Origin: Symploca sp. SIO2C1
GTDB taxonomy: Bacteria > Cyanobacteriota > Cyanobacteriia > Cyanobacteriales > Coleofasciculaceae
Length of the DNA: 44,546 bases
Assembly (NCBI GenBank): GCA_010692635.1
Contig: JAAHGL010000044.1
Span: forward strand, 1 to 44,546
Direction of reading: 5' to 3'
Below are positions 12,857-43,211 of this stretch, in pieces. The notes under the pieces are model-generated. The model had not been told where the DNA came from. It ran no database searches and saw nothing but the letters and a program-made list of their open reading frames with translations. Positions within the stretch are counted from its first letter, which is position 1. Each line of letters starts with the position of its first letter. A program made the position numbers and the translations under genes.

Positions 12857-15800
12857 ATGGTTTGGGAGCTATTGGCGGGGATTGGTGGGAGTGCGGTGAA
12901 GCCAGTTACGGCAAAGATATCGAAGGTACTGGTTGAGAAAGTCACCACTAAGTTGAATCCCTCGGATTTGGAGCAGGCTTTGCAGGGGGGATTGCTGGCG
13001 ACTCAGGAGTATGAGAAGAAACTGCCACAGAATCAGCGTTTATTTTACCGTTGTTTCCCGGATACTGTGCCTGGATTTCTGGAGCGGTTCTTTCAGGAAG
13101 CGATAGTTGAGCAGGAATTGCAAAAACCGCTGAGGGATGCTGGTACTCCCAAGGTGGAATATTTGGTAAAAGTTTTCCAGCAAGTAGCTGAGGCACATTT
13201 AAAGGGAGAATATACGGCAGCTAGCCTGGAATCTTGGCTGGAAGTATTTACTCGAGCTTATCTGGAAAAAACGAGTACTTATCTGAAATTTCAAGTTGCC
13301 AAAGCAGATTATTTTCGGCAATTAGCTATCTACTTTGATGATGTTAAATTTGCCGGGATTGCTGTTGAGGGACAAGAAGGGGAAAAATCAGAGAGGCTGG
13401 AACAAATTTTTGTTATGCCGGAAGTGATGGAGGAGACTGCGGCAAGTCAAATTACTCCTGATTTAGAGTTAGGCATAACAACAACCACTACAGCATTGTT
13501 TCAAACTCAAAAATCTGATGTAGGGGCGAAGCATTTGGGCGATAATTTATCGATAAAACCCAAGGTATACAGTCCAAATGCTTCGCCCTCTGTCAGTTGG
13601 GAAAAAACTGGGAGGAGATTTTCCGCAGAACAGTTGTTGAGTCAAACTACAGCTCGTAAATTAGTGATACTGGGAGACCCTGGTATTGGTAAAACTACTT
13701 TAATGAGCTACTTTGCGGTGATGCTGGCACGGCAGCAGCCGGAAAAGTTGGGTTTAACGGCACAGGTGGATTGGTTACCAATTCTGCTGCGGATTCGGGA
13801 TTTAGCGAGAGTGCCAGATATAGGGATTTTGGATTATATTCAACAGTTTGCTCAGAAGCATTTAACTGTGGCAACTCTGCCAGTGGGTTTCTTTGAACAT
13901 TGGTTAAAAGCAGGAAAAGCTTTAATTTTATTAGACGGTTTGGATGAGGTAGCTAATCCGGCTAAACGGGAAGCAATAGTAGATAAAATAAGGTGTTTCC
14001 TGGGACAATTCCAGCAAAATCCTGCAATTATTACTTCTCGTCCCGCTGGCTACCGCCGGGACTTTTTCCAAACCACGGAGTTTTCCCACTATTGGCTGCA
14101 AAAGTTTGATCAAGAGCGGATTCAACTATTTATTGAACAATGGTACAACAGCCGCATCCGCGACCCCAAGGAAGCTCAACGTTGTAAGGATAGTCTCAAG
14201 CAAGCACTGGGAGAACAAGACAGAATTCAGCTGTTGGCACAAAACCCGTTGCTGCTGACAATTATTGCTCTGATTCACCGCTATGAGGCGTATTTACCGA
14301 GAAAGAGGTATAAACTCTATGACCGGGCTGTTAAAACTCTGTTAACTAATTGGGAAACTAGAAAAGGTGTGGATGGGCATTGGCAATTAGAGTATCTCAC
14401 CAGGGATGACTTAGAGCGGTTGATGCAACGCCTTGCCTATTGGATTCATACCCAAGGAGACACGGGGGATAAGGAAGGTGGTACGCTAATTGACCGGGAT
14501 GAGTTGATTTCCCGGTTAAGTAAATTCATTGCTGAGCAGAAACGGCTGGAGCGGTATCAAGCGAAGGAAGAAGCTAAGCGCTTTTTGCAGTTGGTGCAAA
14601 ATCGGGCTGGTTTATTAAATGAACAAGGGCAAGACTGTTATGCTTTTGTCCACAAGACATTTCAAGAGTACCTGGCAGCGGAGGAAATTCGCTACCGTCA
14701 GGAAGATGATGATTTTAGGATTGTGTTGGAGCATATATACCAATATCTCCACAATCCTCACTGGCGAGAAGTTTTGCTCTTGCTGATTGCTCAGCAAAAA
14801 CCTAAAAAGGCGACGAAGGTGCTGGAGGCAATTTTGGGGCGGGATACGGTTTATGAAGTTTGGTTGCACCGCAATCTCTTCTTTGCTGGTAGTTGTTTGG
14901 CAGAGGATATACAGGTTGCTGAGGAGGGTTTGGTTACAGAGATTTTGCAGCGGTTGGTGGCATTGGAGATTGGTAAGGATGAGCGGGTTGGTAGAAACAT
15001 CCGCAATCAGGTTATGCAGACGCTTTGCAGTTTGTCTGAAAGTAGGTTTGAGAAGCAAGCGCTGAAACTAGTGAGGGCTGTTGAAGATTATTTTGACGAA
15101 GATGAAGAACGATTGTGGAAATATCAGGCAGCATTGGGGGAAAAGGAGGTAGTAATTGAGATGCTGCTGGAGCAACTGACGGATGAAGATAACCTGGTGC
15201 GTAGCAATGCTGCTTCAGTTTTGGGCAACTTAGGTAAGGATTCTGAGGCAGTGGAGAAGGCACTGCTGAAGCTACTCACAGATGGTGATTCAGAGGCGCG
15301 TATTTGGGCAGCTGAGGCGTTGGGTGATTTAGGTAAGAATTCAGAGGAAGTACACCAAGCACTGCTAGCGCTACTCATAAATGATGATTCAGAGATGCGT
15401 ATGTGGGCTGTTTGGGCGTTGGATAATTTAGGTAAGGATTCAGAGGAAGTACACCAAGCACTGCTAGCGCTACTCACAGATGATGATTCAGAGGTGCGTA
15501 TGTGGGCTGTTTGGGCGTTGGATAATTTAGGTAAGAATTCAGAGGAAGTACACCAAGCACTGCTAGCGCTACTCACAGATGATGATTCAGAGGTGCGTTT
15601 CTCGGCTGTTAAGGCATTGGGTAATTTAGGTAAAGATTCAGAGAAAGTACACCAAGCACTGCTAGCGCTACTCACAGATGACGAGCAACTGATGCGTATC
15701 CGGGCTGCTGAGGGGTTAGTTAAATTGGTTAAGGATTCAGAGGAAGCAAACAAAGTACTGCTAGCACTACTCACAGATGACGAGCAACGGGTTTGTCTCC

Positions 15801-16039
15801 GGGCTGCTGAGGTTTTGGGTAATTTGGGTAAGGATTCAGAGGAAGTACACGAAGCACTACTAGCACTACTCAAAGATGATGGGCAACTGGTGCGCACCTC
15901 TGCTGCTGAAGCATTGGGTAATTTGGGTAAGAAATCTAATGAGGTTACCCCTGCTGTCATCCACTGGATAGAGCAGCACCAGGATTCAGAGTATGTAGGC
16001 AGCGGGATTGATGCGCTGTGGGATTTGGTAGTGCAGTAG
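12857..16039 (+). CDS. NACHT-domain STAND NTPase with C-terminal HEAT repeats
   Basis: This is a 1060-residue signal-transduction NTPase. Residues 1-210 are mostly helical, with no enzyme motif I recognise. The NACHT domain follows: Walker [10 protein letters not shown] (273-281), Walker [11 protein letters not shown] (about 356-365) with the NACHT-typical paired acidic residues, and a sensor-like [12 protein letters not shown] helical winged region runs to about 640 ([15 protein letters not shown] is the typical end of such domains). The C-terminus (about 785-1040) holds HEAT-like repeats of 33 residues. In bacteria such proteins sense ligands and oligomerise; several act in antiphage defence, but no effector gene adjoins this one. 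The TAG stop is the first triplet of a 114-bp MITE, so the C-terminus may be truncated. Confidence 0.88.
15239..15931 (+). repeat. Seven 99-bp tandem repeats encoding HEAT units
   Basis: Units begin near 15239, 15338, 15437, 15536, 15635, 15734 and 15833 at exact 99-bp (33-codon) spacing. Units at 15338-15634 are almost identical at the DNA level, including the block CAAGCACTGCTAGCGCTACT, which points to recent expansion or gene conversion. Confidence 0.85.
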
Positions 16040-31541: not shown

Positions 31542-31605
31542 ACTAAGCAGGTAGAAATTATGTTAAAACGATAATCATTATTATATCATAAGATATTTCT
31601 CATTT
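31542..31605 (+). promoter_or_regulatory. Zur-type operator in a duplicated promoter cassette
   Basis: The core CGATAATCATTATTA (31569-31583) matches TGATAATnATTATCA at 13 of 15 positions. About 64 bp around it (CTAAGCAGGTAGAAA..., TTAAAACGATAATCATTAT) is closely repeated at 39474-39537. It lies about 150 bp upstream of the flavoprotein gene. Assignment to Zur follows the consensus reported for cyanobacterial Zur; a Fur box is the alternative. Confidence 0.7.
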
Positions 31606-31733: not shown

Positions 31734-32903
31734 ATGGCTATGCCACTCTACGAGTACTTCTGTTCCAACAACAACCAAACTGTTGAAGCTGTTATTGTCG
31801 GTGCGGGTGCGGCGGGGGTCGGTTGTGGGGTCGTTCTCAAAGATTTAGGGCTCCAGAATTTTATCATATTAGAGCGCCATGAAGTGGGAGCATCTTTTAA
31901 TCGCTGGCCTGCACAAATGCGATTTATTACCCCGTCGTTTCCCAGTCACGGCTTTGGGTTACTCGACCTGAATGCAGTAGCTCTAAATACCTCCCCAGCT
32001 CTATCTTTTCGACAAGAACACATAACTGGTAAGGAGTATGCCCTCTATTTACAAACGGTTGTCGAGCATTTTCAGCTTCCGGTAAAAACGGGCATCGAGG
32101 TTCGCGATATTGAAGCACTACCAGGAGAAAAAGGGTTTATCCTCAAAACTTCCCAAGGCGATGTCCAAAGCCGCTTTGTCATTTGGGCAGCAGGAGAATT
32201 TCAGTATCCGCGCCTTGATCCCTTTCCCGGTGCCGATTCGTGCATTCATAATACTCAGGTACGCTCCTGGGACGAGATACAGGGAGAGGAGTTTATTGTT
32301 ATTGGTGGTTATGAAAGCGGAATGGATGCCGCCACCAATTTAGTTGCCTTGGGAAAACGAGTGGGAGTAATCGATCGCGCTAAAAGTTGGGCATCCAATG
32401 ACCCCGATCCGAGCATCTCTTTGTCTCCTTACACACTACAGCGCTTAGAGTTTGTCTATGCTACAGGTCGCCTTGAACTGGTTGGTAATACTGATATTGT
32501 GGGAGTCAAGCGCGACAACAACGGTTATGCTGTCGTCGGAGCGCAAGGTAATGAGAATATCGAGTATCGCCAGTGGATGAGTCCCACGCCTCCTATTCTG
32601 TGTACGGGTTTTAAGGGCAGTCTCAGTACCATAGCCCATTTGTTTCATTGGTCTGAAGGACATGCTGTACTGAATGAATGCGATGAATCGACCCGTACTC
32701 CAGGGTTATTCGTTGTCGGACCTTCTGTGCGTCACGGGGATGTGATTTTCTGTTTTATCTATAAATTCCGGCAGCGGTTTGCGGTGGTGGCTGATGTGAT
32801 CGCACAACGTTTGGGTTTAGATCCCTCACCTTTGCAGGTTTACCGCGAACAGGGTTTATTTCTTGATGACCTTTCCTGCTGTAGCAATGACTGTGTTTGT
32901 TAA
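31734..32903 (+). CDS. CzcO-like FAD/NAD(P)-dependent flavoprotein with Cys-rich tail
   Basis: 389-residue flavoprotein monooxygenase-type oxidoreductase. FAD Rossmann motif is VGAGAAG (23-29), followed by ILERHEVGASFNRWP. A second dinucleotide motif, VIGGYESGMDAATNL (about 186-200), binds NAD(P). It belongs to the same broad group as CzcO (COG2072), which is associated with cation-diffusion facilitators. The last residues are SCCSNDCVC, five cysteines in nine, an apparent metal- or thiol-binding tail. It has an upstream Zur-like operator and ends 25 bp before the FeoB-like gene, so they probably form an operon. Substrate is unknown. A redox step coupled to metal uptake is an inference. Confidence 0.85.
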   Translation: MAMPLYEYFCSNNNQTVEAVIVGAGAAGVGCGVVLKDLGLQNFIILERHEVGASFNRWPAQMRFITPSFPSHGFGLLDLNAVALNTSPALSFRQEHITGKEYALYLQTVVEHFQLPVKTGIEVRDIEALPGEKGFILKTSQGDVQSRFVIWAAGEFQYPRLDPFPGADSCIHNTQVRSWDEIQGEEFIVIGGYESGMDAATNLVALGKRVGVIDRAKSWASNDPDPSISLSPYTLQRLEFVYATGRLELVGNTDIVGVKRDNNGYAVVGAQGNENIEYRQWMSPTPPILCTGFKGSLSTIAHLFHWSEGHAVLNECDESTRTPGLFVVGPSVRHGDVIFCFIYKFRQRFAVVADVIAQRLGLDPSPLQVYREQGLFLDDLSCCSNDCVC

Positions 32904-32928: not shown

Positions 32929-34623
32929 ATGAACCGAGTTACTGGACAACTCTCTACCCACACTGCCGTCGTTGCGATCGGTAAAGAAAGCGTGGGAAAA
33001 TCCCAGTTAATTGCCTCTCTCACCCAAAAGCCAGCCTATAGCTCGAATTTTCGGGGTACTACCGTGGCTTGTGAAACCTATCGCCGTTGCGATAGCGAAG
33101 CGCTGCTGCGAAGCGCAGATCGCACCTTTGTCGATACGCCTGGGATTTTGCGCCAGTCTGATAGCGTAACGACGGCCACCGTTCTGAACCGTTTGCCAGA
33201 AACGGATACCGTGCTGCTGGTGGTGCAAGCTACTCATATCGACGAGGATTTAGCGGAGTTACTCCCATTGGTTCAAGGCAAGCGGGGAGTCGTGGCTGTT
33301 ACCTTTTGGGATAAGGTACGAGCTAAAACAGAAGCAATGGAAGTAATCGAACGTCTCCGCCAGAGTTCCGGGATTAGTTTCATTCCTGTGGATGCCCGTC
33401 ATCTGAGTGCAAGCGATCGCGTCCAGATTCTCGAGGCTCTTTCATCTCCGGGAACCTTTACCCAAGAGTTTACACCAGAACGCATTGGCTGGTGGATCGA
33501 GCCATCACCAACGTTATTGGAACACCACTACTGGGGACCGGTTGCAGCAATTTTGCTGCTTTTATTGCCTGCCATCATCGCCGTTGGGACAGCCAACACC
33601 TTGGCTGGATTCCTTGAGCCCTTAGTACAAGGGTTGGTTAAGCCTTTAGTCGAACAACTCAACCAATTGCCGTCCCTATTGCGAGAAATACTTGTAGGTC
33701 GATATGGACTGGTGACGATGAGTCCATTGCTGTTCGTTTGGGCTGTTCCCACGGTTTTACTGTATGCCCTGTTTCTTGGTGCTTACAAAGCGAGTGGTTT
33801 GATTGATCGCATCACGGTGGCAATGCATCCATTAATGCTTCCCTTTGGATTAACAGGGCGAGATTTGGTGCGGGTGATTATGGGTTTTGGTTGCAATGTC
33901 CCCGCAGTAATTAACACTAGGGCTTGTTCGAGTTGTTCGCGAGGGACTTGTATTTCTGCGATCGCATTTGGTTCCGCTTGTTCCTACCAGTTCGGGGCAA
34001 CCCTCGGCGTATTTGCGGCGGCTCAACTGCCTTATCTGGTTATCCCTTATTTATTTTATCTGACAGTAACAACCTTAATTTACACCCGACTGACAGCACC
34101 CAAAAAAGCGCGATCGCCGTTAAATAAGTTGCTCGTTGAAGGGCGTAGCTTCCTGGAATTGCCCCGCCCGATCGCCATCTGGCGTGAAGCTCACAGCACC
34201 CTATCTCAATTCTTTCTCCAGGCAATCCCCATCTTCTTGGGAATTACAATTATTGCTTCCCTACTTGACTGGCTAGGCATTCTCTCTTTATTGTCCGGTG
34301 TTCTTCGCCCTGTGATGAGATTGTTTCGCCTTCCAGCTGAAGCCGCTTTACCTGTGGTGCTTGCCTCTATTCGCAAGGATGGCATTTTGCTATTCACCGA
34401 ACCGAATGTAGTGGGTGCTTTAACCCCCTCGCAGATTCTCACAGCCGTTTATCTGGCAGGTGTAATTGTGCCTTGCCTTGTCACCCTCCTAACCATTGTG
34501 CGCGAGGTGTCTTGGCGCTTTGCCCTGAAGCTTTTGACCCAGCAAGTTGTTGCAGCCGTTAGCTTTTCACTGCTTCTGGCTTGGGGCAACGCCCTATTTG
34601 AGCATTCAATTAACCGCTTCTAG
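32929..34623 (+). CDS. FeoB-like GTPase-fused membrane transporter
   Basis: The 564-residue protein has a small GTPase domain (1-175) and a FeoB-type membrane region of about eight helices (about 205-560). G1 is GKESVGKS (18-25), a TT switch I is present, and G3 is DTPG. G4, normally NxxD, reads TFWDK. The channel motif GFGCNVPAV at about 319-327 is the FeoB Gate signature, and it is followed by ACSSCSRGTC and SACSYQFG, unusually Cys-rich. Length is shorter than FeoB (about 770), lacking the spacer/extra helices. In Fe systems this transports Fe2+. Here the Zur-like operator and COG0523 neighbours suggest Zn2+ or another divalent metal. A repeat-like GCGAAGCGC insert falls before G3. Confidence 0.85.
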   Translation: MNRVTGQLSTHTAVVAIGKESVGKSQLIASLTQKPAYSSNFRGTTVACETYRRCDSEALLRSADRTFVDTPGILRQSDSVTTATVLNRLPETDTVLLVVQATHIDEDLAELLPLVQGKRGVVAVTFWDKVRAKTEAMEVIERLRQSSGISFIPVDARHLSASDRVQILEALSSPGTFTQEFTPERIGWWIEPSPTLLEHHYWGPVAAILLLLLPAIIAVGTANTLAGFLEPLVQGLVKPLVEQLNQLPSLLREILVGRYGLVTMSPLLFVWAVPTVLLYALFLGAYKASGLIDRITVAMHPLMLPFGLTGRDLVRVIMGFGCNVPAVINTRACSSCSRGTCISAIAFGSACSYQFGATLGVFAAAQLPYLVIPYLFYLTVTTLIYTRLTAPKKARSPLNKLLVEGRSFLELPRPIAIWREAHSTLSQFFLQAIPIFLGITIIASLLDWLGILSLLSGVLRPVMRLFRLPAEAALPVVLASIRKDGILLFTEPNVVGALTPSQILTAVYLAGVIVPCLVTLLTIVREVSWRFALKLLTQQVVAAVSFSLLLAWGNALFEHSINRF

Positions 34624-35491: not shown

Positions 35492-36395
35492 TCAGGATAT
35501 AGCGCTGCTGAGCAATAACTTGGTAGAGCGTTTAAGTAATTTGACCTTGTTGGGAGAGAACTGTCCAATTCTTTTCCAGTTGACATCATAAATTGAGACT
35601 TTTTTTGTCTTTGCTGTTTGGGTATAACCACCGATCCAACCTCTGTATACTTGTCCTGCTTTTTGAGCTTGAACAAAATCACCAGAGCGAAAGCCAAAAG
35701 GGGTAACAGTTCCACCTTTACGTTTACGGTATTGAGTTGGATTAGTCAGATTTATCCTTAGGTAGTTTAAGCCACTGCCTAATATTGGAAGTTTCCCAGC
35801 CAAATATCGTTGCTGTTGGTGCAATTTCACCCAACCACGCCAACATGACTTTTTGACCTACCATTGCTGGGCTAAATCCTTTATCCCCACGAGTCTTGAT
35901 GTACTCATAAACAATGTGGGAAATAGGAAATATTTGACAAATCTCTTTAACTACTCTTAGCTCCAGTTGGCGATTAGCCTTGATGCCAACAGGTAGCTTT
36001 TTCTGAACCCTGTTATCAAATCGCTTGGCTCTATGGCAGCGCTGGCTATAGGGAAGCTTACGATTAATTCTACGTCCACGTCTAGCCCGTCGAAGTATCC
36101 TTCTTCCTGCCATTTTCTTAGTGATATTGGGGAATGGCAGAATTAGGTGAAGTTTGAGTAGGGTAGCTTTACTACTTTGAACTCCCACACCACTAAACAT
36201 TTTGCCAGGGTCGATGCCAATCACTACATCTTGAGTTTCATGCCCAGATGGTTCATTGATTAGTTGAATAGCAAAAATGTTCAGGTCATTTTTGTAGATT
36301 GCTGCTTTACCATCTCTCAGCCATTTTCTGGCTCTTGACGGCTTTGTGGGCATTAATGCTTTCCCTTCTGGGGAAATAACTGGTACTCGTTGCAT
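35492..36395 (-). pseudogene. isrB: IsrB-type (RuvC-only IscB relative) RNA-guided nuclease, frameshifted
   Basis: The N-terminal half (36395-35742) has the PLMP-type segment (ALMPTKPSRARKWLRDGKA), RuvC-I with Asp in IGIDPGKMFSG, an Arg-rich bridge helix (RRARRGRRINRK) and RuvC-II with Glu in IVYEYIKTRG. It then passes straight to GWETSNIRQWLKLPKDKSD, without an HNH domain, as in IsrB. The frame ends there, where RuvC-III (HxxDA) should start. A second frame (35830-35492) carries the C-terminus (GGTVTPFGFRSGDF, YRGWIGGYT, VNWKRIGQF). RuvC-III is deleted, so it should be inactive. IsrB proteins are carried by IS200/IS605-type elements. Confidence 0.82.
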
Positions 36396-38348: not shown

Positions 38349-39422
38349 TTAGGCGAGACAATGCTTCAGGTTCTGCCGCAGGTTCTCTGCATCCAGATTG
38401 CGCCCAATAAACACAAGTTGATTACTGGGTGAAGTTCGCCACTGTTCTGCTTGCAAGTCAAAGCGCGGACCACTCAGTTGAAAGATATGGCGCAACTCGC
38501 TGTCAGCAAACCAAAGGATTCCTTTTGCCCGGAAGACTTCCTGGGGCAATTGTTCTTGCAGGAACGATTCAAACTTGTGAACATCAAAGGGGCGATCACT
38601 CTCAAAGGCGATCGACACAAATCCATCATTATCTAGATGATCAGAATGGTGATGATGGTGTTCATGGTGATGATGGGTGTGATCTTCATGATGATCGTGC
38701 GAATGATGATGATCACGATCGTGCTGAGATTGCTCAATCTCTTCCTGAACTAAATCAGCATAGGCTTCCGGATTGTTGTAACCGACATCCAGAATCAACG
38801 GCAGTGACACCTTTCCATGCTGGCTATGAAGAATCCTGGCACCTGCTTTGACGGTGCGAATGTAAGCCTCCAGGTTCTGAATCTGGTTTGGCTTTGCCAG
38901 ATCGGTTTTGTTCAAAATCGTGACATCTCCGTAGGCAATTTGCTTGAATGCCGCTTCGCTCTCAAAGTGATCGGGGGTGAATGTCTCAGAATCCACCACC
39001 GTGATGATTGAATCTAGCCGAGTCATGTCACGCAATTCCGTCCCCAAGAAGGTTATAACGATGGGTAATGGGTCAGCGACTCCAGTGGTTTCAATCACCA
39101 TATAATCAACTTGATCTTCTCGTTCTAACACTCGGTAAACTGCATCCACTAACCCATCATTGATGGTGCAACAGATACAGCCATTACTCAGTTCCATCAT
39201 GTCTTCATCCATCGACACCAATAACTGGCTATCAATGTTGATGTCGCCAAATTCATTGACCAAGATGGCGACTTTTAAATCTTGGCGATTACTCAAAATG
39301 TGGTTAAGCAAAGTAGTTTTACCACTGCCGAGAAACCCTGTGATGATAGTGACAGGCATTCCTCTTTTAGGAATGTCCAGAGTCGTTGGGTGGGAAAGAG
39401 TTACTGTGTCAGTCATATCCAA
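38349..39422 (-). CDS. COG0523 GTPase with His-rich loop, putative zinc chaperone
   Basis: This 357-residue CobW-type G3E GTPase has Walker A GFLGSGKTT (29-37), the zinc-binding CxCC motif NGCICC (Cys82, Cys84, Cys85), the Walker-B-like ETTGVADPLP and guanine NKTD. A His/Asp-rich stretch (about 232-262, more than 15 His) is typical of zinc-storing or chaperoning members. The C-terminal CobW_C domain ends VFIGRNLDAENLRQNL. Proteins of this kind deliver Zn2+ to client enzymes under limitation. Divergent from the CcmM paralogue, with a Zur-type site between. cysS follows on the same strand. A TGG-rich start at ATG 39422 is used; 39416 is also possible. Confidence 0.92.
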   Translation of the reverse strand: MDMTDTVTLSHPTTLDIPKRGMPVTIITGFLGSGKTTLLNHILSNRQDLKVAILVNEFGDINIDSQLLVSMDEDMMELSNGCICCTINDGLVDAVYRVLEREDQVDYMVIETTGVADPLPIVITFLGTELRDMTRLDSIITVVDSETFTPDHFESEAAFKQIAYGDVTILNKTDLAKPNQIQNLEAYIRTVKAGARILHSQHGKVSLPLILDVGYNNPEAYADLVQEEIEQSQHDRDHHHSHDHHEDHTHHHHEHHHHHSDHLDNDGFVSIAFESDRPFDVHKFESFLQEQLPQEVFRAKGILWFADSELRHIFQLSGPRFDLQAEQWRTSPSNQLVFIGRNLDAENLRQNLKHCLA

Positions 39423-39473: not shown

Positions 39474-39537
39474 ACTAAGCAGGTAGAAACTAGGTTAAAA
39501 CGATAATCATTATCATATTATAAGATCTTTGTCATTG
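39474..39537. promoter_or_regulatory. Zur-type operator between divergent genes
   Basis: Core CGATAATCATTATCA (39501-39515) differs from TGATAATCATTATCA in one base. The surrounding 64 bp match the cassette at 31542-31605. It could control both the COG0523 gene (start 79 bp away) and the CcmM-like gene. Confidence 0.75.
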
Positions 39538-39707
39538 CGGGAACACAACCAAACAGAAGACATTTAGCGGTTACGTAGGAATTTATGAGATGATTGTGCA
39601 ATAATCCTTATGCCCTCACCTTTACGGAAACTACCAAGACTTTTAACCCCGTCGCCGTCTATGGGGATGCGCCCAATCCAACTCAACTTTGAACCGAGGA
39701 CAATATC

Positions 39708-40643
39708 ATGCCGTTGCGTCATCAACCCGCCCCACCCACCCCCTGGGACCACGATCTGGATCGGCCCACCATTGCCGCATCTGCCTATGTCCATCCCCAG
39801 TGCAGTCTAATTGGGGATGTGCAACTGGGCGAAAATGTAATCGTCGCCCCCAATACCTCCATTCGTGCGGACGAAGGGGCTCCCTTTTACATCGGTGCGA
39901 ATACCAACATTCAGGATGGGGTGGTCATTCATGGATTAGAGCAGGGACGAATCTTAGGGGACGATCAGCAAGCCTACTCGGTGTGGATTGGTCATGATAC
40001 CTGCATTACCCATATGGCGTTGATCCACGGTCCTGCTTATGTTGGAAATGAGTGTTTTATTGGCTTTCGCTCGACGGTGTTTAATGCGCAGGTTGGTCAC
40101 GGTTGCATTGTGATGATGCACGCCCTGATTCAGGATGTGGAGATTCCCCCCGGTAAGTATGTGCCGTCGGGAGCGGTGATTACGACTCAGCAGGCAGCCA
40201 AGCGGCTGCCAGATGCTAACGATAGCGATCGCACCTTTTCTCACCACGTAGTCCAAATTAATCAAGCCTTACGGGCGGGGTATCTCTGTGCAGACGATAT
40301 CGCCTGTGTCACCCCTTTGCAGAATCCGGTCTCCAGTAATAGCTCTCGGTCTATGCCTCAAAATGGCAAAGCATCTCATCCTTTACAGGCAGACATCGTA
40401 GACACGATCCGACAACAACTCCGCCAGGGTCACCACATTGGTCTGGAATTCGCCAATGCGCGACGATTCAAGGTTGGTTCCTGGCAGAGTGGCCTTACGA
40501 TTACCAGTGCCCATGAGGCTCAGGTGCTAACCCAGGTGAAACAGTTTTTGGGCAATCACCCTGGCGACTACGTGCGATTGTTGAGCATTGACCCTAAGGC
40601 AAAACAGCGCCAGTTGGAGCAACTGATTCAGAAGCCAGAGTGA
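39708..40643 (+). CDS. Short CcmM paralogue: gamma-carbonic-anhydrase domain with a single SSUL domain
   Basis: 311-residue protein, clearly CcmM-like. Residues 1-200 form the left-handed beta-helix gamma-CA domain ([48 protein letters not shown]), with the three metal-site His candidates retained (VVIHG, ITHM, LIHG). Residues about 230-305 are a RuBisCO-small-subunit-like domain ([18 protein letters not shown], then [20 protein letters not shown]). Standard CcmM has three to five SSULs to gather RuBisCO in the carboxysome; this has one, and the Cys typical of the WQSC loop is Gly (SWQSG). No ccm genes are near. The Zur-like operator upstream suggests expression under zinc limitation. ATG 39708 is preceded by GAGGA. 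Confidence 0.9.
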
Positions 40644-41212: not shown

Positions 41213-41227
41213 TGATAATCATTATTA
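41213..41227 (+). promoter_or_regulatory. Zur-type operator upstream of alpha/beta-hydrolase-like gene
   Basis: TGATAATCATTATTA, 14 of 15 matches to TGATAATCATTATCA, ending 14 bp before ATG 41242. Its position argues for starting the gene at 41242, not at the longer open frame (41053). Confidence 0.72.
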
Positions 41228-42141: not shown

Positions 42142-42205
42142 CATCAATATTTAATAATTTCCCAGGCTAATTTTAGATTAAAAACCGTTTTTCTGGAAAT
42201 GAGAT

Positions 42206-42220
42206 CGATTATCATTATCT
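42206..42220 (+). promoter_or_regulatory. Zur-type operator upstream of second COG0523 gene
   Basis: CGATTATCATTATCT, 12 of 15 matches to TGATAATCATTATCA, 22 bp before the ATG at 42243. Weaker than the others, but with the same placement. Confidence 0.62.
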
Positions 42221-42242: not shown

Positions 42243-43211
42243 ATGGTAGCGACAACCACCAACACCGTTCCCGTCACGGTACTAACAGGTTATCTAGGTG
42301 CGGGTAAAACTACCCTCCTCAATCGTATCCTTACTTACGAACACGGTAAAAAAGTAGCAGTCATCGTTAACGAGTTTGGAGAAGTCGGGATTGATAATCA
42401 ACTGGTGATTGATGCCGATGAAGAAATCTTTGAGATGAACAACGGCTGTATTTGCTGTACGGTGAGGGGTGACTTGATTCGCATTATCGGCAATTTAATG
42501 AAGCGTCGCAACAAGTTCGACCATTTGGTCATTGAAACCACTGGGTTAGCTGATCCCGCCCCTGTAATTCAAACCTTTTTTGTGGATGAAGATATGAGAG
42601 ACAAGATTGCCTTGGATGCGGTGGTTACTGTCGTCGATGCCAAACATATTCAGCAACACTGGGAAGCAGATGAAGCACAGGAACAAATTGCTTTTGCCGA
42701 TGTAATTCTTCTCAATAAAACCGATCTTGTTCATCCCGAAGAATTGGATGATTTGGAAAGTAAAATTAAAGCCATGAACGGGATGGCAAAAATCTATCGC
42801 ACGCAAAATTCTGAATTATCGATGGATGCGTTGTTAGGAGTCCAAGCATTCGATTTAGACCGCGCTTTGGAAATCGACCCCGAATTTCTCAACGAAGATG
42901 CCCACGAACACGACGAGACAGTAAAATCCTTTGCCATAGTAGAATCTGGAGAACTAGACGGACAGAAACTGGATGACTGGTTGAGTAACTTATTGCAAAC
43001 TAAAGGTGTAGATATCTTTCGCATGAAAGGTATTTTAAATGTTGCAGGAGAAAGCGATCGCTTTGTCTTTCAGGGAGTACATATGCTGTTGGATGGGAAA
43101 CCAGACCGCCCTTGGAAGGAAGGAGAAACCCGTAAGAATGAATTAGTATTTATCGGTCGCAATCTAGATGAGGTACAACTGAGAAAGGATTTCAAACAAT
43201 GTTTGGTGTAG
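42243..43211 (+). CDS. COG0523 GTPase, second copy, putative zinc chaperone
   Basis: A 322-residue G3E GTPase with Walker A GYLGAGKTT (16-24), CxCC (Cys69, Cys71, Cys72 in NGCICC), ETTGLADPAP, and NKTD. There is no long His-rich loop, only EDAHEHDE near residue 221. The C-terminal domain ends VFIGRNLDEVQLRKDF. Together with the His-rich copy at 38349-39422, it gives two sub-types of this family in one region. It probably inserts or hands over Zn2+. Its 3' end overlaps the WD40 gene by 13 bp, suggesting translational coupling. Confidence 0.92.
   Translation: MVATTTNTVPVTVLTGYLGAGKTTLLNRILTYEHGKKVAVIVNEFGEVGIDNQLVIDADEEIFEMNNGCICCTVRGDLIRIIGNLMKRRNKFDHLVIETTGLADPAPVIQTFFVDEDMRDKIALDAVVTVVDAKHIQQHWEADEAQEQIAFADVILLNKTDLVHPEELDDLESKIKAMNGMAKIYRTQNSELSMDALLGVQAFDLDRALEIDPEFLNEDAHEHDETVKSFAIVESGELDGQKLDDWLSNLLQTKGVDIFRMKGILNVAGESDRFVFQGVHMLLDGKPDRPWKEGETRKNELVFIGRNLDEVQLRKDFKQCLV

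Follow-up and report, generated by a model that had tools for sequence, protein, structure and literature searches.

Gene content of the window

The window analysed in this study is a stretch of 44,546 nt from Symploca sp. SIO2C1 (GCA_010692635.1, contig JAAHGL010000044.1), whose assembly comprises 8.17 Mb in 470 contigs. It contains an intact gene for a short CcmM paralogue, named ccmM2 here, which is preceded by a GAGG ribosome-binding site 8 nt ahead of the ATG (Table 1). A sequence-only reading of this DNA had described the product as a complete gamma-carbonic anhydrase (gamma-CA) domain with candidate metal-site histidines plus one SSUL, encoded next to a zinc chaperone, and this description was borne out. 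CcmM2 gave a single stretch each of the Pfam families Hexapep and RuBisCO_small; residues 4-207 aligned with 3KWC, the gamma-CA structure of T. elongatus CcmM (E 1.9e-94), and residues 227-310 aligned with the SSUL structures 6MR1 and 6HBA. The NCBIfam CcmM model NF053794 scored 500 bits, which is below its cut-off of 550. Genes for COG0523 proteins were found on either side of ccmM2, the downstream one lying behind an alpha/beta-hydrolase gene.

Table 1. Features at and around ccmM2, in positions of the window
Feature	Position	Strand	Basis or remark
Flavin-oxidoreductase box, CGATAATCATTATTA (2 mismatches)	31569..31583		165 bp ahead of the genes for the flavin oxidoreductase and the FeoB-like protein
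Flavin-dependent oxidoreductase	31734..32903	+	Homologue in 20/41 short-ccmM loci
FeoB-like GTPase/permease	32929..34623	+	Homologue in 19/41 short-ccmM loci
Second CysRS, one in-frame TAA	36622..38145	-	92% identical to the CysRS beside the clade-B ccmM2 of genome G065
COG0523 GTPase A (His-rich), divergent from ccmM2	38349..39422	-	Pfam/NCBIfam
Zur-type box CGATAATCATTATCA (1 mismatch to TGATAATNATTATCA, the presumed consensus)	39501..39515		Between the divergent COG0523 A and ccmM2
HisI remnant (last ~31 codons and stop)	39597..39692	+	Directly upstream of ccmM2; comparison with relatives
ccmM2 (short CcmM paralogue, 311 aa: gamma-CA domain and one SSUL)	39708..40643	+	Intact ORF
CcmM2 gamma-CA domain, residues 8-200	39729..40307	+	H75, H102, H107, E56, Q69, C194, C200 present
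CcmM2 single SSUL, residues 227-310, no Cys	40386..40637	+	Pfam, structure alignment, Foldseek
Box TGATAATCATTATTA (1 mismatch)	41213..41227		Within the 5' region of the alpha/beta-hydrolase ORF as called
Two overlapping weak boxes (3 mismatches each)	42200..42220		Just upstream of COG0523 B
COG0523 GTPase B	42243..43211	+	Pfam/NCBIfam

Two of the neighbours appear to be damaged. An intact HisI occupies the place of the remnant in two Symploca relatives (L077 and L078), of which Symploca SIO2E6 (L078) is ~96% identical over ccmM2, the window being ~1.2 kb shorter there. The second CysRS has probably decayed, as it carries an in-frame TAA, and the other CysRS of the genome lies on contig C423. 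These decayed HisI and CysRS partners were counted against the zinc-limitation reading developed below. A second, N-terminal piece of HisI was seen elsewhere in the same genome (G000:C452:24354-24464), and the two separate remnants look as if a rearrangement broke the gene.

Two further genes of the window were recorded in passing. An RRXRR-domain protein (PF14239), perhaps IscB-like, is encoded at 35742-36395 (-) between the FeoB-like gene and the CysRS. A 1060-aa protein with an N-terminal NNH2 domain, NACHT and HEAT repeats is encoded at 12857-16039 (+), a make-up that we take to be that of NLR-like signalling or defence proteins.

A second CcmM with an intact gamma-CA site and one SSUL

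We assign metal and catalytic roles to H75, H102, H107, E56, Q69, C194 and C200 by analogy with T. elongatus CcmM and Cam, and R53, D55, E56, N67, Q69, D70, H75, E78, H102 and H107 are presumed to be the metal ligands and catalytic groups of these enzymes. All ten, together with C194, were present in 37/37 short CcmMs, and C200 was present in 36/37. CcmM2 carries the three metal histidines, the catalytic Glu/Gln and the Cys194-Cys200 pair of an active gamma-CA, and the full seven-residue set was found in 36/37 short and 45/58 long CcmMs, the long set being drawn mostly from the top-scoring relatives of short CcmM, so that its residue counts lean towards CcmM2-like sequences. Ligand loss, which would give an enzyme that is metal-free or clearly not a zinc enzyme, was rejected, as the metal ligands are all retained; that these ligands are the same as those of zinc CcmM was counted against the zinc-limitation reading. 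Selection on ccmM2 is purifying, with dN/dS of 0.10-0.25 (4 pairs). The AlphaFold model had a mean pLDDT of 73.4 and a pTM of 0.45, and its gamma-CA part fitted 3KWC poorly (TMt 0.29, rmsd 15 A), so the gamma-CA assignment is based on the sequence alignment.

The SSUL fold was supported by the same model (Foldseek TMt 0.95 to 6hbc_A). Exactly one SSUL was present in 37/37 short CcmMs, compared to 2-5 in 58/58 long CcmMs. In a gapless alignment, R252, R253 and K299 of CcmM2 correspond to R251, R252 and R298 of S. elongatus SSUL1, which are reported to be required for homodemixing and lie in a region that also contacts RuBisCO (PMC8580825). Position 252 is Arg in 37/37 short CcmMs and position 253 in 36/37, while position 299 is Lys in 24/37 and Arg in 13/37 and is therefore basic throughout; CcmM2 has both the SSUL fold and the basic contact positions expected of an SSUL-borne cargo. 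Some acidic SSUL positions in clade B, one of two clades of short CcmMs described in the last section, are unlike those of long CcmM and were counted against our best explanation.

No more than one SSUL Cys was present in 35/37 short CcmMs, which makes a redox-switched disulfide within the single SSUL of most of them unlikely on sequence grounds. The glycine pointed out earlier in place of the WQSC Cys is indeed there, as G262, at a site where many SSULs carry Cys. It was rejected as a diagnostic feature: Gly also occurs in 9/58 first SSULs of long CcmMs and in the solved SSUL 6MR1, and the site is Cys in 12/12 clade-B short proteins.

CcmM2 is not the only CcmM of its genome. The main ccmM lies on contig C24 between ccmL (its end) and ccmN and encodes 562 aa with three SSULs, which agrees with the earlier view of ccmM2 as a second copy. 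The genome also holds an additional gamma-CA-like frame on C13, two beta-CA genes and, on C459, a 433-aa Rubisco activase with an SSUL (AAA, activase helical domain and RuBisCO_small). A search across the window found no CcmL or CcmN homologue, in keeping with the earlier statement that ccm genes are absent nearby, and Pfam showed no shell-protein family in 22 scanned of the 27 ORFs (>=120 aa, overlapping 1-34000); the remaining five overlap longer ORFs. ccmM2 has neither the three or more SSULs nor the position beside ccmL/ccmN of NF053794-type CcmMs. It has instead the attributes of the satellite single-SSLD CcmMs, namely a gamma-CA domain with exactly one SSUL, a place off the main locus and a main ccmM elsewhere in the genome.

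A difference from standard CcmM was found in part: it holds for the number of SSULs, but not for the CA active site, which is standard. The main CcmM (gamma-CA and 3-5 SSULs) shares with CcmM2 the gamma-CA domain, its active site and the basic SSUL contact positions, whereas CcmM2 differs in its one SSUL, its scarcity of SSUL Cys and its distance from ccmL/ccmN. A loss of CA in the main CcmM was considered as a general reason for CcmM2 and rejected, as the main CcmM of the window's genome keeps all tested residues. Among the 9 long copies listed from short-CcmM genomes, 3 (L217, L221 and L223) were without some of the tested residues.

Genomic context of short and long ccmM genes

After removal of duplicates and uncertain cases, 41 short-ccmM and 47 long-ccmM loci were compared. 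A gene for HisI, CysRS, ThrRS, FolE or COG0523 was found within ~10 kb of 33/41 short genes and 0/47 long genes, while ccmL or ccmN was near 0/41 short and 45/47 long genes. A box with <=2 mismatches to the presumed consensus stood within 900 bp upstream of 29/41 short and 0/47 long genes, so that either a zinc gene or an upstream box marked 38/41 short and 0/47 long loci; when the criterion was relaxed to 3 mismatches and the distance set to 400 bp, 2/47 long loci became positive. Boxes with <=1 mismatch numbered 49 in 672,305 b of short loci (27/41 loci) and 1 in 827,850 b of long loci (1/47), compared to Markov-shuffle means of 0.1 and 0.4, respectively, although part of this excess belongs to neighbour genes, since zinc loci hold several zinc genes. 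The locus counts are not independent, as the loci share ancestry. Even so, the comparison supports an association of short ccmM with zinc genes that is both stronger and wider than a single neighbouring chaperone gene, and it co-locates short ccmM with known Zur targets.

The arrangement differed between the two clades. In clade B, a box with 0-2 mismatches starts ~21-28 bp ahead of the start codon chosen for CcmM2 (12/12 loci), a divergent CysRS lies upstream in 10/12, and HisI, COG0523 and FolE follow downstream on the opposite strand in 7/12, with ThrRS as well in 3. Among the clade-A-type loci (n=29), HisI is immediately upstream in 19, as is its remnant in the window, and is often preceded by the FeoB-like and flavin-oxidoreductase genes. 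A box with <=2 mismatches was present within 500 bp before HisI in 12/19 clade-A-type loci with HisI; directly before the intact HisI of the two Symploca loci there was none at this cut, and L078 has a 4-mismatch site. Three of the 41 short loci showed no zinc gene and no upstream box; of these, L082 has a contig starting 29 bp upstream, L108 is cut in the 5' part and L088 has ~19.5 kb flanks. The flavin-oxidoreductase and FeoB-like genes, with a box before the oxidoreductase, were also seen together in L079, L080, L084, L090 and L157.

Zur-type boxes and Fur-family genes

The boxes are matches to the 7-1-7 palindrome TGATAATNATTATCA, which we take to be the cyanobacterial Zur box. Within the window, the box nearest to ccmM2 (39501-39515) is ~190 bp upstream of it and nearer to COG0523 A, and is overlapped by a weak promoter-like hexamer facing that gene. 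Another box (41213-41227) falls within the called alpha/beta-hydrolase ORF; the true start of this gene may be further downstream. The whole window held 6 boxes with <=3 mismatches compared to 3.83 expected, a number reached by 14/100 shuffles and therefore not significant, and so the window alone proves little.

The box count of the whole genome was tried as a test for a zinc regulon and rejected: 18 sites were found compared to 9 for the reversed control, and 9/18 were one sequence, TGATAATCATTGTCA or its complement. For this reason only local box enrichment was used. These nine copies, perhaps part of a repeat family, lie on contigs C81, C123, C169, C201, C282, C426, C431, C435 and C444.

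Elsewhere in the genome, on contig C224, a perfect box precedes a folE-COG0523 pair by 23 bp. A LysM-M23 peptidase gene (L200 3559-6210) was observed on the other side of this box and is read towards it. The genome has four Fur-family genes, one of which (C444) adjoins a hemB-type gene, with genes for a ZnuA-like protein and an ABC ATPase after it. The NCBIfam scan covered the C444 protein, which reached 33 bits against a Zur cut-off of 167 and scored lower with the Zur model than with the Fur and PerR models; that this candidate does not score as Zur weighs slightly against the zinc-limitation reading. A protein of ~241 aa with a GIEGNLAAYEA stretch and no Pfam match is encoded downstream of ccmM2 in G114 (L039 7148-7873), and a similar protein was noted near the Fur-family and ZnuA-like genes of the window's genome (L211 1224-1958).

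Relation to known systems

As a protein type CcmM2 is not new, since satellite CcmMs with a single SSUL have been published before (Long et al. 2011 and Sommer et al. 2017, as stated in PMC5853843). Leptolyngbya and Acaryochloris were the carriers described first (Long et al. 2011, as stated in PMC5853843), and Microcoleus and Rubidibacter were later added (PMC5853843). Like CcmM2, these proteins consist of a gamma-CA domain and one SSLD, and their genes lie outside the main carboxysome locus; a role such as recruitment to RuBisCO was proposed for them in that paper. The available portion of PMC5853843 leaves zinc unmentioned, whereas the short CcmMs of our study, in two clades, mostly lie in box-bearing zinc clusters. 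Another single SSUL borne by an enzyme is that of Rubisco activase, where it is C-terminal; this enzyme is an ATPase and not a CA.

In proteobacteria, Zur regulons have been reported to include paralogues of gamma-CA, HisI, CysRS and ThrRS (PMC2770081), and PA5540 (PaCAgamma1) is an active gamma-CA whose cluster is reported to be Zur-regulated (PMC13261364). These Zur-linked gamma-CAs (Cam paralogues and PA5540) resemble ccmM2 in lying in a Zur cluster with paralogues of zinc enzymes but, unlike CcmM2, no link to RuBisCO or carboxysomes is mentioned for them in the available text of PMC2770081 and PMC13261364. In Anabaena, the reported Zur targets include COG0523 proteins (PMC10957091) and hemB2, thrS2 and folE2 (PMC6103462), and no ccmM is named among them in the available text of these two papers.

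A search of open-access literature, which leaves most subscription papers outside, yielded no report of a Zur-linked, zinc-starvation or COG0523-linked CcmM. In papers on cyanobacteria, microcompartments or carbonic anhydrase that this search brought up, "Zur" was a German title word (PMC9964548, PMC4207490, PMC13249358 and PMC5853843) or part of a remark on Pseudomonas (PMC13261364). Judged from this search, the placement of a short CcmM in zinc-limitation clusters seems to be new.

A proposed zinc-limitation isoform of CcmM and its alternatives

The explanation that we favour, with a probability of about 0.65, is that CcmM2 is a form of the beta-carboxysome protein CcmM made under zinc limitation, with Zur-type control of its gene, and acts as a CA supplement tethered via its SSUL. 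From the domain make-up, intact residues, boxes and neighbours, which are present in the sequence itself, we infer the following course of events. With sufficient zinc, zinc-loaded Zur would bind the 7-1-7 boxes and repress the cluster; as zinc falls, CcmM2 would be induced together with COG0523 metallochaperones and spare HisI, CysRS, ThrRS and FolE. The protein would assemble, perhaps together with CcmM, into the trimer typical of gamma-CAs, and its intact metal site would hold either scarce zinc loaded by COG0523 or another metal (Fe2+ or Co2+). One SSUL per chain may dock it on RuBisCO and so carry it into the carboxysome, where its CA activity would offset lost activity of the zinc beta-CA (CcaA type) and/or of the main CcmM.

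A role as a tethered CA supplement, and not as a builder of the matrix or network, is proposed because an engineered one-SSUL CcmM (gammaCAL-1S) no longer showed homodemixing and condensed far less with CcaA (PMC8580825). The sequence-only reading had suggested a CcmM that could support or replace the carboxysomal CA and RuBisCO matrix when zinc is short. The zinc part of this proposal is strengthened by the contrast between short and long loci and by the boxes, while replacement of the RuBisCO matrix by CcmM2 is unlikely in view of the engineered protein, of which CcmM2 is a natural analogue.

If true, the zinc-limitation isoform would represent a dedicated zinc-shortage response in CO2 fixation and a natural isoform for studying the metal requirement of carboxysomal CA. 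It would connect zinc homeostasis with carboxysome biology, gives a concrete and testable reason for single-SSUL satellite CcmMs, and suggests that some cyanobacteria adjust carbon fixation to metal supply. A broader proposal, which we hold tentatively and at a little under even odds, is that the beta-carboxysome is itself metal-responsive: under zinc starvation, derepression by Zur would add or swap in a single-SSUL CcmM whose gamma-CA, perhaps using iron, stays active after the zinc beta-CA has failed. Both the CA and the scaffold make-up of the carboxysome would then be remodelled directly by zinc status, and the trait would spread between cyanobacterial lineages with the zinc cluster.

Two alternatives concern the metal itself. 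CcmM2 may use zinc and be the first protein to receive it from the COG0523 chaperone expressed alongside it, the isoform providing priority or copy number; this is possible, although we would place it on the doubtful side. The retained metal ligands and the COG0523 genes of 16/41 short loci, divergent from ccmM2 in the window, are consistent with it, and copy number is the alternative raised for proteobacterial HisI, CysRS and ThrRS paralogues that keep their zinc ligands (PMC2770081). No COG0523 gene was seen in the other 25/41 loci, which speaks against this scheme, although many of these contigs are short.

Alternatively, CcmM2 may be a zinc-sparing gamma-CA that uses Fe2+ (or Co2+), with iron supplied by the FeoB-like transporter, which we consider rather unlikely. 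Cam is reported to be most active with Fe and to contain Fe if purified anaerobically (as cited in PMC2770081), the same proposal was made in that paper for the proteobacterial Zur-linked Cam, and the FeoB-like gene, often behind a boxed oxidoreductase gene, accompanies 19/41 short loci. Against this, every tested active-site residue is identical to zinc CcmM, and the FeoB-like protein is well under the cut-off of the FeoB equivalog model (111.5 compared to 315.65 bits).

Apart from its metal, CcmM2 could act chiefly on the network, with its one SSUL mixing into CcmM trimers or capping RuBisCO sites and thereby loosening the matrix, to give fewer or smaller carboxysomes at low zinc, with CA activity secondary. 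The behaviour of gammaCAL-1S and the near absence of SSUL Cys pairs are compatible with this, as are R166 (36/37 short CcmMs) and D174 (37/37), which match by position the head-to-head salt-bridge pair reported in PMC8580825. A purely structural role would need no CA site, yet this site is stricter in short than in long CcmMs, which makes such a modifier improbable.

The zinc-limitation isoform also presupposes that the boxes answer to zinc. If they were bound by Fur (iron) or another member of the Fur family, the cluster would respond to iron or peroxide. The box letters do resemble generic, classical Fur-family boxes, the oxidoreductase - FeoB-like pairs carry such boxes too, and the one NCBIfam-scanned protein of the four Fur-family genes does not score as Zur. 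The consensus of Anabaena FurA, on the other hand, is a different AT-rich 19-mer (PMC4005646); in the reports cited above, Zur has COG0523 proteins, thrS2 and folE2 among its targets in Anabaena and is linked in proteobacteria to paralogues of HisI, CysRS and gamma-CA. Control by Fur is regarded as quite improbable. That ccmM2 is a redundant spare copy, retained by chance and without special regulation, is very improbable given the low dN/dS, an architecture conserved in 37/37 and the recurrent partners and boxes, even though the available text of an earlier survey lists satellite ccmMs without regulatory context (PMC5853843) and two zinc-cluster partners have decayed in the window.

Distribution and evolution of short CcmMs

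A profile of nine short CcmMs was searched against 388 genomes of the class. The top 22 matches were all short frames (309-342 aa), two more (316 and 294 aa) ranked lower, and a short CcmM was present in at least 23/388 genomes. A scan of named genomes covered the best 80 of 206 relatives. Same-genome duplicates were dropped behind the kept locus (L039/L149, L040/L170, L041/L088, L044/L171, L045/L172, L046/L143, L159/L137, L160/L139, L162/L132, L163/L140 and L164/L144), as were longer or unclear frames (L168 and L169), a broken long ccmM (L047), partial or frameshifted genes (L148, L150 and L151) and other gamma-CAs (L155 and L156). The tree and residue counts were made without the partial or broken short genes L089, L091, L108 and L158 (41 to 37) and the partial long gene L130 (47 to 46). 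Fifteen extra long ccmM places were added, 11 from short-copy genomes and 4 from the window's family; a search with PP[TS]PW recovered 12 of them, to give 58 long rows, while L214, L215 and L218 were lost.

In the tree of 95 gamma-CA domains, the short forms fell into two starred clades of 25 and 12 rows, with bootstrap not settled, and an AU test did not reject a single clade of short forms (p 0.305). P30 was found in 36/37 short and 1/58 long CcmMs and Q186 in 36/37 short and 8/58 long CcmMs. Neither a firm single nor a firm double origin was accepted, as the two clades of the tree are set against the AU result and the shared P30 and Q186. Genome G065 belongs to the family of the window's genome and yet carries a clade-B short gene, whereas the long copies of both genomes group together, which fits horizontal spread of the short gene between lineages. 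A clade-B CcmM2 with zinc-cluster genes was also observed in a record labelled Candidatus Gracilibacteria (L138), which is probably mis-binned.
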